Source: Lachnospiraceae bacterium
GTDB lineage: Bacteria > Bacillota > Clostridia > Lachnospirales > Lachnospiraceae
NCBI GenBank assembly: GCA_022768825.1
Contig: JALEJB010000100.1
Span: 1-36,206, forward strand
Reading direction: 5' to 3'
Length of the DNA stretch: 36,206 bases
Translations under genes and position numbers: made by a program
In this document: one piece after another, positions 9,918-16,764 of the stretch
Layout: each line of letters starts with the position of its first letter
Numbering within the stretch: position 1 is the stretch's first letter
Notes under the pieces: model-generated
Told to the model about the DNA's origin: nothing
Seen by the model: the letters and a program-made list of their open reading frames with translations, nothing else
Database searches by the model: none

Positions 9918-12020
9918 ATGAAAAATATACGAAAGATTTTAATTCGGGACTTGATCGCATTATTTAAAGCACCTCTTGCTTTATTGATAGCGGGGGGGCT
10001 GTGTCTGCTTCCTGCATTATATGCCTGGTTCAATATATACTCAAATTGGGATCCGTACGCAAATACCGGAGCGGTTCCCATTGCGCTTGCCTGTGAAGAT
10101 CCGGGGTATACAACGGATGCAGGGGAAGAGGTCAATGTGGCAGAATCGGTGATTGATTCTTTGATTGAGACGGCAAGTATCAATTGGATTAAGGTGGATT
10201 CTGAAGCTGAGGCAAGAGACGGTGTGACATCCGGAAAATATTACGCAGCAATTGTTTTTGATGAGAATTTTACAAGCAGCATGTACGAAGGATTTCTAAA
10301 CGGATTAGAGAGACCTCGTGCGACATATATAGAAAATGAAAAGAAAAATGCAATTGCGATCAAGATTACGGATACAGCTGTCGGCAATGTAGAAAATAAG
10401 ATCAATGAACAGTATATCTCATTGGTGGTAAGTACACTTTTTAATAAAGGTGAGAAAATTACAACGGAGATTGATTCGCGAGATTATATTGGAAGACTGG
10501 TTGAAAATGTAGAAACTATGAAGACGACGGTAGATGATTTTTCGACAATGATCAAGTCGATATCTGCAGCAAATGAAAAATTGTCTGCTTCTTTAGAGGG
10601 AGCAACCGGAGACTTAAACGCGATCAGTGCAAATCTGGGAACCGTGGGCGAGAAGATTACGGATGTTCCGGATACCAATGCGCTTGCAAGCAAACTAATA
10701 GCAGCGAATGCGACCGCAGTGAATGCGATTGGGGATAGTGTGGATGCAATAAAGACTGCATCCGGCACAGATCAGGCAAACAATAAGGCAAAAATGTACC
10801 GACAGGCGGCAAAGCACCTGCAGTCGGCGAAAAATTCTGTGGATACGATGTCGAATTCCTTACAATTATTGAATTCCTCATCTATGAATCTGTCACAGTC
10901 GGTAGTTCTTACACAGTTACAGGCGACATCAGTCAGTTTACAGGCGAACATTGACAGTTGTAATGAGGCAGCAGATCACGCGGAAGCGAGTGAACTGATG
11001 CCGGAAACAGAGGCGGAGCTTGCTGCCCAGGCAAAAGCATTACAGACAAATATGCAAACAGTCATCACACAAAGTATGGCACAACTTGGTGTGGAATTAC
11101 AGAATCTTTCAAACAGTGCCAATACAATGATTGCCAACGTGCAGTCAGATATAGAATTGATCCATATGATTCTCGGAAATGGAACGCAGACAATTGATCT
11201 GGCAGATGAAAGCTTTACGGGAATTGCAACCAGGCTAGATCAGATTTCGAGCGAGCTGGATGACGTGGTGGATGTATTGTATGCTTTGTCCAATGCCGGA
11301 TTGACTGAAAAATTTTTAGAATTCATGCAGGGTGATCCGGATGCGTATGGCGAGTTTTTTGCAGAGCCGGTACATATTGTGACAGAATCAGTCTATCCGG
11401 TTGAGAATTACGGATCCGGTATGACCCCATTTTATACAACGCTTGCAATCTGGGTTGGCGGAGTCGTATTGGTGTCATTGATCAAGACAAAATCAGATAA
11501 AAAAGGTGTCGAGACAGCCAAACAATATGAATTGTATTTTGGAAGATATGCATTGTTCTTCATTCTTACAATGATACAGGTGGTTGTCATTGTAATCGGA
11601 AATCTGTATCTGTTGAAGATCCAATGTATGTATCCCGGAAAATTTTTGTTGGCATCCTTGCTGACGGGATTGACATTTTCATTGTTGATCTATACCTTTA
11701 CATTGTCATTTGGAGATATCGGAAAAGCCTTTATTGTTGTGATCATGGTAATTCAGGTAGCTGGTTCAAGTGGTTCTTATCCGATTGAAATTTTACCGGA
11801 GTTTTATCGGAAGATGTATATTTTCTTCCCATTCCCATATGCGATCAATGCGATGCGTGAGGCGATTGCAGGAACTTATGAAAACGATTATGTCATCTAC
11901 TTATTGCAGCTTTTGATTTTTGCGGCAGCAGCACTTGTACTGGGATTATTTATTCGGATACCTTTCGCAAAATTGAATCATTTTGTGGAAGAGAGAATGG
12001 AAGAAACGCACTTTATGTAA
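9918..12020 (+). CDS. YhgE/Pip domain (ABC-2-like) membrane protein
   Basis: 'LLPALYAWFNIYSNWDPYANTGAVPIALACEDPG', central coiled coil, C-terminal multi-TM domain. Confidence 0.88.
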   Translation: MKNIRKILIRDLIALFKAPLALLIAGGLCLLPALYAWFNIYSNWDPYANTGAVPIALACEDPGYTTDAGEEVNVAESVIDSLIETASINWIKVDSEAEARDGVTSGKYYAAIVFDENFTSSMYEGFLNGLERPRATYIENEKKNAIAIKITDTAVGNVENKINEQYISLVVSTLFNKGEKITTEIDSRDYIGRLVENVETMKTTVDDFSTMIKSISAANEKLSASLEGATGDLNAISANLGTVGEKITDVPDTNALASKLIAANATAVNAIGDSVDAIKTASGTDQANNKAKMYRQAAKHLQSAKNSVDTMSNSLQLLNSSSMNLSQSVVLTQLQATSVSLQANIDSCNEAADHAEASELMPETEAELAAQAKALQTNMQTVITQSMAQLGVELQNLSNSANTMIANVQSDIELIHMILGNGTQTIDLADESFTGIATRLDQISSELDDVVDVLYALSNAGLTEKFLEFMQGDPDAYGEFFAEPVHIVTESVYPVENYGSGMTPFYTTLAIWVGGVVLVSLIKTKSDKKGVETAKQYELYFGRYALFFILTMIQVVVIVIGNLYLLKIQCMYPGKFLLASLLTGLTFSLLIYTFTLSFGDIGKAFIVVIMVIQVAGSSGSYPIEILPEFYRKMYIFFPFPYAINAMREAIAGTYENDYVIYLLQLLIFAAAALVLGLFIRIPFAKLNHFVEERMEETHFM

Positions 12021-12036
12021 TGGAAGGATAACGTAC

Positions 12037-12453
12037 ATGGAAGATAAATATCATCAGTTTTATTTACAGCTTCTCGCTTATGAAGAAGAGAAACACAAAC
12101 AAAATCAACAAAAAATAAAGATGACGATTCGTTTTTTGCTCTGGGTACCATTGGTTTTTCTGGCGCTTATGTTTCTTACGGATTCTTCAAAAGTCATTTT
12201 TCTGGTGTTGTGGATCGTTTCGTTATTTGGAATTGCGACTTATGCAATCTATGTAGAATATTCAGACTTTGAATTGCAGGAAAAAATTAAGCACTATAAA
12301 GAGAGCGAAGATGAGACCGACCAGTATCTGATTGGTGGAGAAATCGAAGTGTTAGAGGAGACACTTGCGGAATTTGTTCACATTTTGGATGAGAAAAAGA
12401 TTCAGAACAAAGAAAAAATCATGGAAGCGATAAAAAGCTACAAGGAGAAATAA
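12037..12453 (+). CDS. Small two-TM protein of unknown function
   Basis: ATG 12037 (MEDKYHQFYLQL...) after a GGAAGGA SD; two hydrophobic segments. Located between two YhgE/Pip genes. Confidence 0.7.
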   Translation: MEDKYHQFYLQLLAYEEEKHKQNQQKIKMTIRFLLWVPLVFLALMFLTDSSKVIFLVLWIVSLFGIATYAIYVEYSDFELQEKIKHYKESEDETDQYLIGGEIEVLEETLAEFVHILDEKKIQNKEKIMEAIKSYKEK

Positions 12454-12456
12454 GGT

Positions 12457-14106
12457 ATGCGTAATATTGTAAAAATTATGCTCCGCGATTTTAAGGCAAT
12501 ATCGACCAATGTTGTGGCATTGGTAATTGTAATGGGACTGTGCGTGGTACCTTGCTTGTATGCATGGTTCAATATCAATTCAAACTGGGATCCCTATGGG
12601 GAAGAGTCGACCTCCAATCTTGTGATTGCAGTGTATTCTGCAGATAAAGGACTGACGATTGCGGACAAAACACTGAATATTGGAGATTCGGTTGTCGATG
12701 CGCTGCGTGGAAATTCGACGATAGGCTGGGTATTCCCGGAAGACGAGCGAACGGCAATAAATGGCGTATATTCCGGAGATTATTATGCGGCACTTGTTGT
12801 ACCGGTTGATTTTACCGAACAGATCGCTGGCGTGGTAAAAGGCAATCTGGCGGGTGGCCAGATTACATACTATGCGAATGAGAAGAAGAATTCCATCGGG
12901 ACAAAGATTACCGGAAAAGCAAAGACAACTGTGCAAAATCAGGTCAACAGTACCGTGTTTTCTACAATTACGAAACTGGCAGCCTCAATTGGAAAATCTT
13001 TAGATTCAGACAACACCACTGGCATATTTAAGCAGATGCATAATAGTATTGCGACTGCCAAAGAAGATATTCAAGGTTATATTGATTCGATAGATGTATT
13101 AAATTCTACGGTAGATACAGCACTCCTCACGATGAATGGAATTACGGAGTTGAATGAGAAAATCCTTGCTGATTTAAGCAAGGATCTGAATATGATCAGC
13201 ACGGCTTCCATGGCGATGTCTACCTCCGGAATAGAGACCGCAAATCTTCGTCTGGAAGATTACATCACATTGTTAAAAGCAGGCCAGACCGATTTAGAAA
13301 AGATTCAACAGATTCTAAAAGATATGTATGATGATGTTGAAAAATTAGAAGACAGTCTTGTTGGAGTGGAGGATTCCGAGGCGTTGGCAACCGTTATAGA
13401 CGTATTGCAAAATGATCCGGAAAAGCTGGGAACATTCTTCGCGACGCCGGTTGATATGCAGACCGAGGCAATTTATCCAATTGAGACTTATGGATCACAG
13501 ATGGCAGCCTTTTATACAGTGCTGGCAATCTGGTTTGGATCGCTGATATTGGTTGCGATCATCCACACAAAAGTCCATCCATTTGAGGGATATCGAAACG
13601 GAAAGCATTATCAGGAATATTTTGGACGATATGCAATTTTCTTTTTGATAGGACAAGTACAGGCACTGCTCTGTTGTCTGGGAGATCTGTTTTTTATGGA
13701 GATTCAATGTAAGCAAAAGCTCTTATTCTGGGCGATGTGTGCGCTGGCAAGCTTTGGATTTACCTTGTTTATCTATTCACTGACCTTTGCATTTGGTAAC
13801 GTGGGAGAGGCTTTGGCGGTTGTCGTCATGGTCATTCAGGTTGCAGGAGCAGGAGGAACCTTCCCGAAAGAGTGTCTTCCGGATGTGTTCCAGATGGTAT
13901 ACCGATTCCTGCCATGGACGTATGTAATGGATGCGCTCAAAGAATGTATTGGTGGAATGTATCTCGACACATACCTGAAGAGTGTTCGATTTCTGTTAAT
14001 ATTTATGGCAGTATCCTTGTTTATCGGATTAGTTTTGAGTATTCCGTTCAGGTTTATGAATCATCTGATGGAACGCAGCAAGGAAAAGACTGGATTTATG
14101 GTCTAG
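12457..14106 (+). CDS. YhgE/Pip domain membrane protein (second, divergent paralog)
   Basis: 'VPCLYAWFNINSNWDPYGEESTSNLVIAVYSADKG' and a C-terminal TM block similar to the 9918-12020 product. Confidence 0.88.
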   Translation: MRNIVKIMLRDFKAISTNVVALVIVMGLCVVPCLYAWFNINSNWDPYGEESTSNLVIAVYSADKGLTIADKTLNIGDSVVDALRGNSTIGWVFPEDERTAINGVYSGDYYAALVVPVDFTEQIAGVVKGNLAGGQITYYANEKKNSIGTKITGKAKTTVQNQVNSTVFSTITKLAASIGKSLDSDNTTGIFKQMHNSIATAKEDIQGYIDSIDVLNSTVDTALLTMNGITELNEKILADLSKDLNMISTASMAMSTSGIETANLRLEDYITLLKAGQTDLEKIQQILKDMYDDVEKLEDSLVGVEDSEALATVIDVLQNDPEKLGTFFATPVDMQTEAIYPIETYGSQMAAFYTVLAIWFGSLILVAIIHTKVHPFEGYRNGKHYQEYFGRYAIFFLIGQVQALLCCLGDLFFMEIQCKQKLLFWAMCALASFGFTLFIYSLTFAFGNVGEALAVVVMVIQVAGAGGTFPKECLPDVFQMVYRFLPWTYVMDALKECIGGMYLDTYLKSVRFLLIFMAVSLFIGLVLSIPFRFMNHLMERSKEKTGFMV

Positions 14107-14145
14107 ATATCAAAACAAAAGAGGAAATCATTCTCGTGTAATTTA

Positions 14146-14326: not shown

Positions 14327-14354
14327 TTGCAATTTGAAAAACAGATGTTATAAT
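14327..14354 (+). promoter_or_regulatory. Strong predicted promoter TTGCAA-N16-TATAAT with extended -10 (TGtTATAAT)
   Basis: Direct motif reading. Confidence 0.75.
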
Positions 14355-14360
14355 AAGATT

Positions 14361-14858
14361 ATCAAATAACACAAGAGAAAAATAAATCTTATTTTTCAAG
14401 AAGAGATGTTATTTTTCAGGATAGATGTTATTCGAAGAAATAAAGAAGAAAGGAAGGTACGGACCACCAAACTACATGAGAAGCATTCGTTTCAAGTTCT
14501 AGCGAAGAGGAAAACGTGGCATACATAAAAAAGAAAACAGAGTTAGTATCAGCCGATTAAAAACCATTTCACATATGATACAATTCTAATTGCCATAAGA
14601 AGAACAGATCGAAGTGAAGATGCGAAGCGAAGAAGATCGAGGGAGCGAGTTCACCCGAAAGAATTCAAAGGAAAATTTAGGAAACGAGGTACAGTCCAAT
14701 GGGATCGTAAGATGAAACAAAATGAAAAGAAAGAGGTAAGGACCAATGGACAGATAAGTTTTAACAAGAAGATGAAGAAAAACGAGGTATAGGCCAATGG
14801 ACGAAATAGTCTAAGGGGCGATGTCGATAATAAAAATTACGATGTCGCCTCTTTTTTT
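14361..14858 (+). ncRNA. Candidate ~500-nt leader / ncRNA upstream of the ABC-F gene, with mini-ORFs
   Basis: Bounded by the extended -10 promoter and an intrinsic terminator; no long ORF. Contains SD-ATG mini-ORFs at 14476-14502, 14516-14560, 14699-14710, 14746-14757 and 14797-14814. Confidence 0.55.
14815..14858 (+). terminator. Intrinsic terminator / putative attenuator upstream of the ABC-F gene
   Basis: GGGGCGATGTCG pairs with CGATGTCGCCTC (12 bp including wobbles), then TTTTTTT. Confidence 0.85.
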
Positions 14859-14931
14859 GTGTGCAAAGATGGTGTATCTATGATACAATCAGTTCTTGTT
14901 AATAAGAAATACTTTTGAAGGTTTGTATGAG

Positions 14932-16764
14932 ATGAGAGCAAATATTTTAACATTAGAAAATATCAAGAAAAATTATACGGAGCGCATGCTGTTTGATGAG
15001 GCGAGCTTCTATTTGCAGGAGGGAGAAAAGGTCGGAATCATCGGTGTAAACGGAACCGGTAAATCGACACTTCTTCGTATGATTGCCGGAACAGAAGTGG
15101 CAGACGAGGGAAAGCGCGTCGTAGCAAACAATCTTGTGATCCGTTTTCTGACACAGCAGCCACAGTTTGCAGATGGAATGAGCGTGTTGCAGGCTGCATT
15201 GTCCATGGACATTCATGAGGAACATGATCTGTCTTACGAAGCCCAGGCAAAGCAGCAGCTGATGGAGCTTGGGATTACAGATTTTGACCAGCCGATGGAA
15301 CAGTTGTCGGGTGGATTAAAAAAGCGGGTGGCAATTGTGGCGACGCTTTTATCCGGGGCAGACATTCTCTTGATGGACGAGCCCACCAACCATCTGGATG
15401 GAAAGACGGCGACCTGGCTGGAAAATTACCTGAAAAATTTTCGTGGGGCATTTGTACTTGTCACACATGATCGGTATTTTCTGGACAGTGTGGTGGATCG
15501 TATCGTGGAGATCGATCATGGAAAGATGTACAGCTATGATACGAACTATGAGGGTTTCTTGGAGTTGAAGGCCGCCAGAGAGGAAGCAGAGGACGCCACC
15601 TGGCAGAAAAATAAATCCCTGCTTCGCACGGAATTAGAGTGGGTGCGTCGAGGAGCACAGGCCCGTACTACAAAACAGAAGGCAAGGTTGCAAAGATATG
15701 AGGAATTAAAAAATAAGAAAGCACCGATCCGTGATGGAAGTGTGGAATTGTCTTCTGTCTCAACAAGAATGGGGCGCACAACCATAGAGCTTCACGGAGT
15801 CTCAAAAGCATATGACAAGCAGCTTTTTAGGGACTTTACCTATATCTTTCTAAAAGGAGACCGGGTTGGGTTTGTGGGAGAAAATGGATGTGGAAAGACA
15901 ACTCTGATGAAGATCATAGCCGGAATGGATAGACCGGATTCTGGTGAAGTTGTAGTTGGTCAGACCGTGAAGATCGGCTATTACTCGCAGGAATTTGATC
16001 ATGACCCGTCTGCGGGCATCGCCTATATGGACCCGAAGCTTCGTGTGATTGATTATATTCGAAATACGGCAGAATATGTAAAGACAAAGGATGGCCTGCT
16101 GTCCGCATCGGTGATGTTGGATAAATTTTTATTTCCACCAAAGGAGCAGTATGCGCTGATCGAGAAACTGTCCGGCGGAGAAAGGAAACGATTGAATCTG
16201 CTTCGTGTTTTGATGGAAGCACCGAATGTACTGATCTTAGATGAGCCCACCAATGATCTGGATATTCAGACACTTACCATATTGGAAGACTATCTGGATT
16301 CCTTTGATGGAATTGTGATTGCTGTCAGCCATGACAGATATTTTCTGGATCGGGTCGTGAGCAGACTTTTCGCGTTTGAAGGTGGGACATCGCCAAGACA
16401 GTTTGAGGGAAGCTACAGTGATTATGAGCTTGTTCGACAGATGGAGACACAACCGCAGCCTGCGCAGAGCAAAGTGGTGACAGAAAAAAAGTCGGATCCG
16501 AATGCGGGCAGAGCGCATGCCGTAAAGGTTCGATTCACATATCAGGAGCAGAAGGACTGGGATACGATTGAAGAGCGGATCGCGGAATTAGAATCGAAAT
16601 TGGAAAAGCTGGATACGGATATCGCCGGTAATGCCAGAGACTTTGTAAAGCTCAATGAATTGACCAAGGAAAAAGAGGAGACAGAAGCAGCACTGGAAGA
16701 GGCGATGGACCGATGGATGTATCTGTCGGACAAGAATGAAATGATAGAAAACGCAAAGAGCTGA
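14932..16764 (+). CDS. ABC-F family ATP-binding protein (Uup-like)
   Basis: Two Walker A motifs (GVNGTGKST, GENGCGKTT), two LSGG signatures, DEPTNHLD / DEPTNDLD, no TM segments, C-terminal coiled coil. Confidence 0.93.
   Translation: MRANILTLENIKKNYTERMLFDEASFYLQEGEKVGIIGVNGTGKSTLLRMIAGTEVADEGKRVVANNLVIRFLTQQPQFADGMSVLQAALSMDIHEEHDLSYEAQAKQQLMELGITDFDQPMEQLSGGLKKRVAIVATLLSGADILLMDEPTNHLDGKTATWLENYLKNFRGAFVLVTHDRYFLDSVVDRIVEIDHGKMYSYDTNYEGFLELKAAREEAEDATWQKNKSLLRTELEWVRRGAQARTTKQKARLQRYEELKNKKAPIRDGSVELSSVSTRMGRTTIELHGVSKAYDKQLFRDFTYIFLKGDRVGFVGENGCGKTTLMKIIAGMDRPDSGEVVVGQTVKIGYYSQEFDHDPSAGIAYMDPKLRVIDYIRNTAEYVKTKDGLLSASVMLDKFLFPPKEQYALIEKLSGGERKRLNLLRVLMEAPNVLILDEPTNDLDIQTLTILEDYLDSFDGIVIAVSHDRYFLDRVVSRLFAFEGGTSPRQFEGSYSDYELVRQMETQPQPAQSKVVTEKKSDPNAGRAHAVKVRFTYQEQKDWDTIEERIAELESKLEKLDTDIAGNARDFVKLNELTKEKEETEAALEEAMDRWMYLSDKNEMIENAKS

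Follow-up and report, generated by a model that had tools for sequence, protein, structure and literature searches.

Layout of the intergenic element

The window analyzed here, a stretch of 36,206 nucleotides from a Lachnospiraceae bacterium (contig JALEJB010000100.1), contains a tract without long ORFs between a gene at 12457-14106, whose product we take by eye to be YhgE/Pip-like, and a gene for an ABC-F ATPase. The locus raises the question of whether this tract serves the ABC-F gene or is a gene in its own right. A sequence-only reading had described it as the leader of the ABC-F gene, carrying a ribosome-sensing transcription attenuator that would respond to translation stress or an antibiotic. 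Directly upstream of the tract, two adjacent genes (9918-14106) encode related large membrane proteins of 700 and 549 aa, both presumably YhgE/Pip-like as judged by eye.

The physical layout described in that reading was largely recovered (Table 1). The extended -10 promoter is present, with its TG before the -10 hexamer, and the plus strand carries no long ORF from position 14142 to the ABC-F gene. The terminator is also present; it was recovered by folding at -21.5 kcal/mol, and it was missed by a simple terminator scanner because its loop is longer than 8 nt. The proposal of several short ORFs preceded by a Shine-Dalgarno (SD) sequence held for the group but not for the ORF encoding MRSIRFKF (14476-14502), the SD of which is weak. 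The R-F-K of that peptide had been likened to motifs linked to macrolide-dependent stalling, a point that falls given the weak SD and the lack of a conserved equivalent ORF at this place in relatives.

Within the window the motif GAGGTAnnGnCCAATGG occurs three times, beginning at positions 14686, 14733, and 14784, and a degenerate fourth copy carries ACC in place of AATG. We refer to these copies as beads. In relatives, the first bead typically has this ACC form, and many of them read GGAGGTACGGACCACC(A/G). The stop codon of the final ORF, MDEIV* (14812-14814), is followed with zero gap by the terminator stem. We take the tract from 14327 to 14858 to be a probable stand-alone RNA gene.

Table 1. 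Predicted features of the element and the adjacent ABC-F gene
Feature	Position	Strand	Basis
Sigma-A-type promoter of the RNA, TTGCAA-16-TATAAT with TG extension before the -10	14327-14354	+	sequence
Predicted RNA transcript of ~498 nt, starting close to +1 and ending with the last T of the T run	14361-14858	+	promoter and terminator bounds
5'-proximal bead without AUG, GGAAGGTACGGACCACC, ACC variant	14452-14468	+	sequence; relatives
AUG bead GAGGTACAGTCCAATG, 3-codon ORF ATG GGA TCG TAA (14699-14710)	14686-14710	+	motif, frame test
AUG bead GAGGTAAGGACCAATG, 3-codon ORF ATG GAC AGA TAA (14746-14757)	14733-14757	+	motif, frame test
Final bead GAGGTATAGGCCAATG, final ORF MDEIV* (14797-14814), stop adjoining terminator stem	14784-14814	+	motif, folding
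Intrinsic terminator, 12-bp stem (arms GGGGCGATGTCG, 14815-14826, and CGATGTCGCCTC, 14840-14851) and T7 (14852-14858)	14815-14858	+	sequence, folding
Extended -10 TGATACAAT, probably serving the ABC-F gene as its own promoter, weak -35 (3 of 6)	14881-14889	+	sequence
ABC-F ATPase, 610 aa, C-terminal ABC_tran_CTD domain, EttA/Uup-like	14932-16764	+	

Distribution of the RNA family

Following weak DNA matches within the genus, we located arrays of this repeat in six further genomes. A search of GTDB species contigs with the exact two-copy pattern then identified arrays in 74 other stretches, compared with approximately 0.5 expected by chance, a figure that we estimated from how specific the pattern is, and the motif in the window is thus not only a chance occurrence. 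All of these stretches that bear informative titles derive from Clostridia, mostly Lachnospiraceae but also Oscillospiraceae and others, and the carriers include Coprococcus comes, Eubacterium ramulus, Blautia, and [Clostridium] symbiosum. The set used for analysis of the arrays comprised 75 loci with 317 bead copies.

A sequence profile of the bead gave matches at E <= 0.01 in 37 of 120 family genomes, almost all of different genera (our own count from the result rows; about 1 expected by chance). Among 20 weaker profile matches that were fetched, 17 had a promoter matching at least 10 of 12 positions near the bead and on the same strand, mostly at or close to the complete consensus. Many of these loci also carried the final ORF or the hairpin described below. 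The presence of promoters, final ORFs, and hairpins at weaker matches suggests that the true spread is larger. Profile matches in other Clostridia families were sporadic. In a phylum-wide sample, the few pattern matches beyond Clostridia looked like chance matches in coding sequence; the pattern TGACGAGAAAG is by itself too short to be specific.

No match to Rfam 15 at gathering score was obtained over the element in the window or the related elements scanned, and the gathering-score matches elsewhere in the loci were to tRNA, rRNA, and Clostridiales-1. The Clostridiales-1 small RNA lay a few kilobases from the arrays at two scanned loci (L104:5270-5439 and L111:38-214), perhaps by chance. An origin as a phage or plasmid element was rejected, since the leader had no DNA match in phages or plasmids and the strict pattern had none in viral contigs. 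No description of this RNA was found in the open literature, subscription papers and preprints lying outside the scope of the search. The RNA family is widespread in gut Clostridia and apparently undescribed so far.

Autonomy from neighboring genes

When neighbors were defined as ORFs of at least 150 aa, 30 arrays shared their strand with the next downstream gene, and 29 had that gene on the opposite strand. The Pfam families of the neighbors were heterogeneous, and no ABC-F protein was apparent among them except in the window. In five species of the window's genus, a 78-aa MFNP gene lies downstream of the array, a location that is not shared by the genome of the window or by genome G005. One contig of the latter (L060, contig 122) holds two arrays 1.8 kb apart; a separate promoter and terminator bound each of them, and the genes downstream are unrelated. 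A consensus promoter matching at least 11 of 12 positions preceded 44 of 71 arrays, as compared with 0.5 in shuffled sequences and 4 on the opposite strand. The unrelated neighbors on either strand indicate that the RNA is autonomous. Collectively, the sequence data make an autonomous, conserved RNA a well-supported interpretation.

Beads and mini-ORFs

Members of the family are laid out as a sigma-A consensus promoter, 1 to about 11 beads with the consensus GAGGUAYRGWCC-R(AUG/AAG/ACC) joined by AU-rich linkers, and lastly a short ORF at the terminator. Bead spacing is mostly 50 to 70 nt and never below 45 nt. About two thirds of the beads contain an AUG and about one third do not. In 170 of 222 AUG beads an in-frame stop follows one or two further codons on, compared with about 23 in the +1 frame. 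A stop at offset 3 was found in 46 of 186 AUG beads but in 0 of 93 non-AUG beads (p = 2e-9, a value that treats related beads as independent), and 2-codon ORFs were confined to AUG beads. Codons 2 and 3 of the mini-ORFs vary widely. By these frame statistics, the mini-ORFs are real.

Beads with AAG or ACC in place of AUG retain both the core GGUAYRGWCC and the spacer. The maintenance of the core without an AUG indicates that a bead is not simply a place to start translation. A GGA common to all beads was not found: a G precedes the SD core in 39%, and at the positions after the start G, G and A are present in 51% and 67%, respectively. Folding gave a mean z score of -0.6 for the arrays, beads were no more open than linkers, and an unusually structured or unstructured array was rejected on both measures. 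Pairing of UACAGUCC with the anticodon arm of tRNA-Tyr was discarded as well: in both C. comes and C. symbiosum the tRNA-Tyr-like sequence carries a 3' arm, ATCTGC, that breaks the match, and the beads of C. comes read GACC. A role of the motif as a decoy for genuine gene starts was rejected too, since across 60 genomes the sequences that matched the 16-mer exactly fell in this type of RNA and not at gene starts. One rumen Lachnospiraceae clade (L104, L089, and L135) has an extra small ORF, with a product that starts MNIDFYIDI or similar, in the interval between the beads and the terminator.

Final ORF, terminator, and hairpin

The most specific observation of the sequence-only reading, that the last mini-ORF ends against the left arm of the terminator, is by sequence comparison a conserved feature. 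Among the 63 arrays with a recognizable terminator, 44 have an SD-preceded ORF that ends between -10 and +4 nt from the left arm, compared with 6.5 in shuffled sequences, and the same abutment was found in 23 of 37 members of a second set chosen by profile. The final ORF is mostly 5 to 10 codons long, and its peptides fall into few types: MNxDESKE, which is that of the window's genus; MD(E/S/A)IV, which occurs in many genera and includes the MDEIV* of the window; MKLLEIH; and MLDIKSEQK. Changes in the final ORF fall mainly on the third codon position, with pairwise differences at positions 1, 2, and 3 of 41, 29, and 99 in one comparison and 16, 26, and 52 in the other.

In Escherichia coli, a ribosome that ends translation a few base pairs before a terminator nearly silences it (PMC4824070). 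In Bacillus subtilis, RNA polymerase outruns the ribosomes, as stated in PMC9226507, and therefore translation-sensitive termination may not operate. A terminator near a stop codon may be nothing unusual in Bacillus. Regulation through the layout of ORF and terminator is possible.

Some members carry a hairpin with an invariant 11-nt loop, UGACGAGAAAG, and a covarying stem, either in the body of the RNA or as the terminator itself. In 17 examples, chosen by loop and not by stem pairing, the three loop-closing pairs were intact in all 17, and all six pairs had changed on both sides; the covariation score was 0.83, whereas shuffles scored 0.24 and slid controls did not exceed 0.18. Hairpins of this kind form the terminators of L272 and L111 and lie in the body of L264-L270 and L278; none is present in the copy in the window. 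In several members, a CUCGU located 3' of the first bead is a possible pairing partner for the ACGAG within the loop.

Candidate mechanisms

The interpretation that we favor, with a probability of roughly 50%, is a stand-alone, trans-acting RNA in which the beads are decoys for ribosomes or for a factor and the 3' end is sensitive to translation. A sigma-A promoter would drive an RNA of about 500 nt with serial GAGGUAYRGWCC beads, of which those with RAUG would offer an ORF of 2 or 3 codons followed by a stop, while those with AAG or ACC would keep the same core. Each bead would bind either a ribosome or a factor. The ribosome would engage the SD through its 30S subunit and leave once one or two peptide bonds had formed, whereas the factor would recognize the conserved SD and ACRGWCC spacer. 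The RNA would thereby titrate ribosomes or that factor in trans, and the in-frame stops would serve for quick ribosome release. A ribosome on the last ORF (MDEIV) would lower termination and tie the 3' end or amount of the RNA to the state of translation. We infer that the RNA is transcribed, binds ribosomes, and acts in trans. That the RNA represents a new regulatory class, in which serial decoy initiation sites (SD, conserved spacer, AUG, and a stop within three codons) act in trans and translation is measured as ribosomes on the last ORF override the RNA's own terminator, is a doubtful but possible extension.

The composition of the beads bears on simpler versions of this scheme. The third of beads that lack an AUG argues against pure ribosome loading, and the quick in-frame stops behind the AUGs of the remainder argue against a pure untranslated sponge. 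It is unlikely that the RNA is instead a translation sensor acting only on itself, with beads that sense initiating ribosomes and an output in its own 3' end and stability. The conservation of the ORF-terminator abutment whatever the downstream gene, together with the immediate stops of the AUG beads, would be consistent with such a sensor. However, AUG-less beads are common and conserved, and the final AUG lies about 60 nt before the U tract, so that a ribosome would have to load very quickly if polymerase runs ahead.

Still less likely is a sponge for one or more small RNAs, in which the beads would mimic the SD and start regions of mRNA targets and the stops would keep ribosomes from sweeping the sites. 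The core is conserved beyond the needs of an SD, its R and Y positions would tolerate wobble pairing, and AUGs with quick stops would fit. However, no close complement of the bead was found in the genome of the window (5 reverse-strand matches versus 11 in the control) and none was found outside these loci in 60 family genomes; an antisense partner RNA detectable by pattern was thus rejected in both.

The original proposal, in which a ribosome stalled on the last mini-ORF would block the terminator and induce the ABC-F gene, is improbable even beside these alternatives. It draws on the adjoining final ORF and terminator, on the near silencing of an E. coli terminator a few base pairs past a translated gene (PMC4824070), and on the vmlR leader, which senses lincosamides and pleuromutilins through a 3-codon uORF that is Met-Ile-Asn, with natural variants MDN, MDK, and MRK (PMC9226507). 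That example also shows that 3-codon uORFs, which had been considered unusual, are not. As in vmlR, a short SD-driven uORF is followed by an intrinsic terminator upstream of a gene. However, the six comparable ABC-F orthologues of the same genus (L002-L007, 73 to 80% identical) have no element ahead of them and have different upstream genes, and the same RNA lies beside unrelated genes on both strands, including at another locus within the genus. Taken together, the leaderless orthologues and the unrelated neighbors of relatives rule out a conserved ABC-F leader, and a role as an antibiotic sensor for this gene is unsupported.

The protein itself also differs from what the attenuator proposal implied. 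The ABC-F ATPase scored far under the cutoffs of the Vga, Sal, Lsa, Msr, OptrA, and CplR models (265.6 versus 725 for Vga) and passed only a general ribosomal-protection-like model (426.7 versus 380); the solved chains closest to it are EttA and Uup. It thus falls outside the resistance clades, and a resistance ABC-F as the regulated protein, which a vmlR-type system would have, is lacking here. The extended -10 past the terminator probably provides the gene with its own promoter. We regard the ABC-F gene as a bystander outside the RNA system that might at most receive read-through. Overall, the sequence-only reading is partly supported.

An array of minigenes in the manner of lambda bar, whose short peptidyl-tRNAs or formyl di- or tripeptides would act on translation or as signals, is far-fetched despite the 2- and 3-codon ORFs with strong SDs, given that the variability of codons 2 and 3 indicates that no particular tRNA or peptide is selected and that many beads are AUG-less.

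Comparison with known systems

If the decoy interpretation is correct, many gut Lachnospiraceae carry an unannotated and probably strongly transcribed RNA composed of ribosome-binding sites that yield almost no protein. Mini-ORFs would then be used in a new way, in trans and in arrays, and the sensing or buffering of translation initiation in Clostridia would become testable. The locus also carries a caution, in that a uORF and terminator beside an ABC-F gene need not mean a resistance attenuator.

CsrB/CsrC and RsmY/Z are stand-alone sponge RNAs with many repeated SD-like beads and with their own promoter and terminator. The predicted transcript described here has the same stand-alone layout, being by sequence an autonomous transcription unit with repeated SD-like beads. 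CsrA beads require GGA, usually in hairpin loops, whereas here GGUAYRGWCC lies between AU-rich linkers and is accompanied by AUGs and in-frame stops.

The vmlR leader of B. subtilis, an attenuator of an ARE ABC-F gene, resembles this RNA in having a 3-codon, SD-driven uORF (MIN) upstream of an intrinsic terminator (PMC9226507). Its uORF is single, lies within an anti-antiterminator stem, and is fixed to vmlR. In contrast, this RNA has serial beads, no fixed target gene, and an autonomous locus, and no conserved alternative stem like that of the vmlR leader was found in it.

Minigenes such as lambda bar and that of axe-txe (PMC8708949) share with the beads very short ORFs behind an SD, here of 2 or 3 codons. 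They are single copies that act in their own operon or by toxicity, whereas in this RNA such ORFs would form arrays within an autonomous transcript that includes AUG-less beads.
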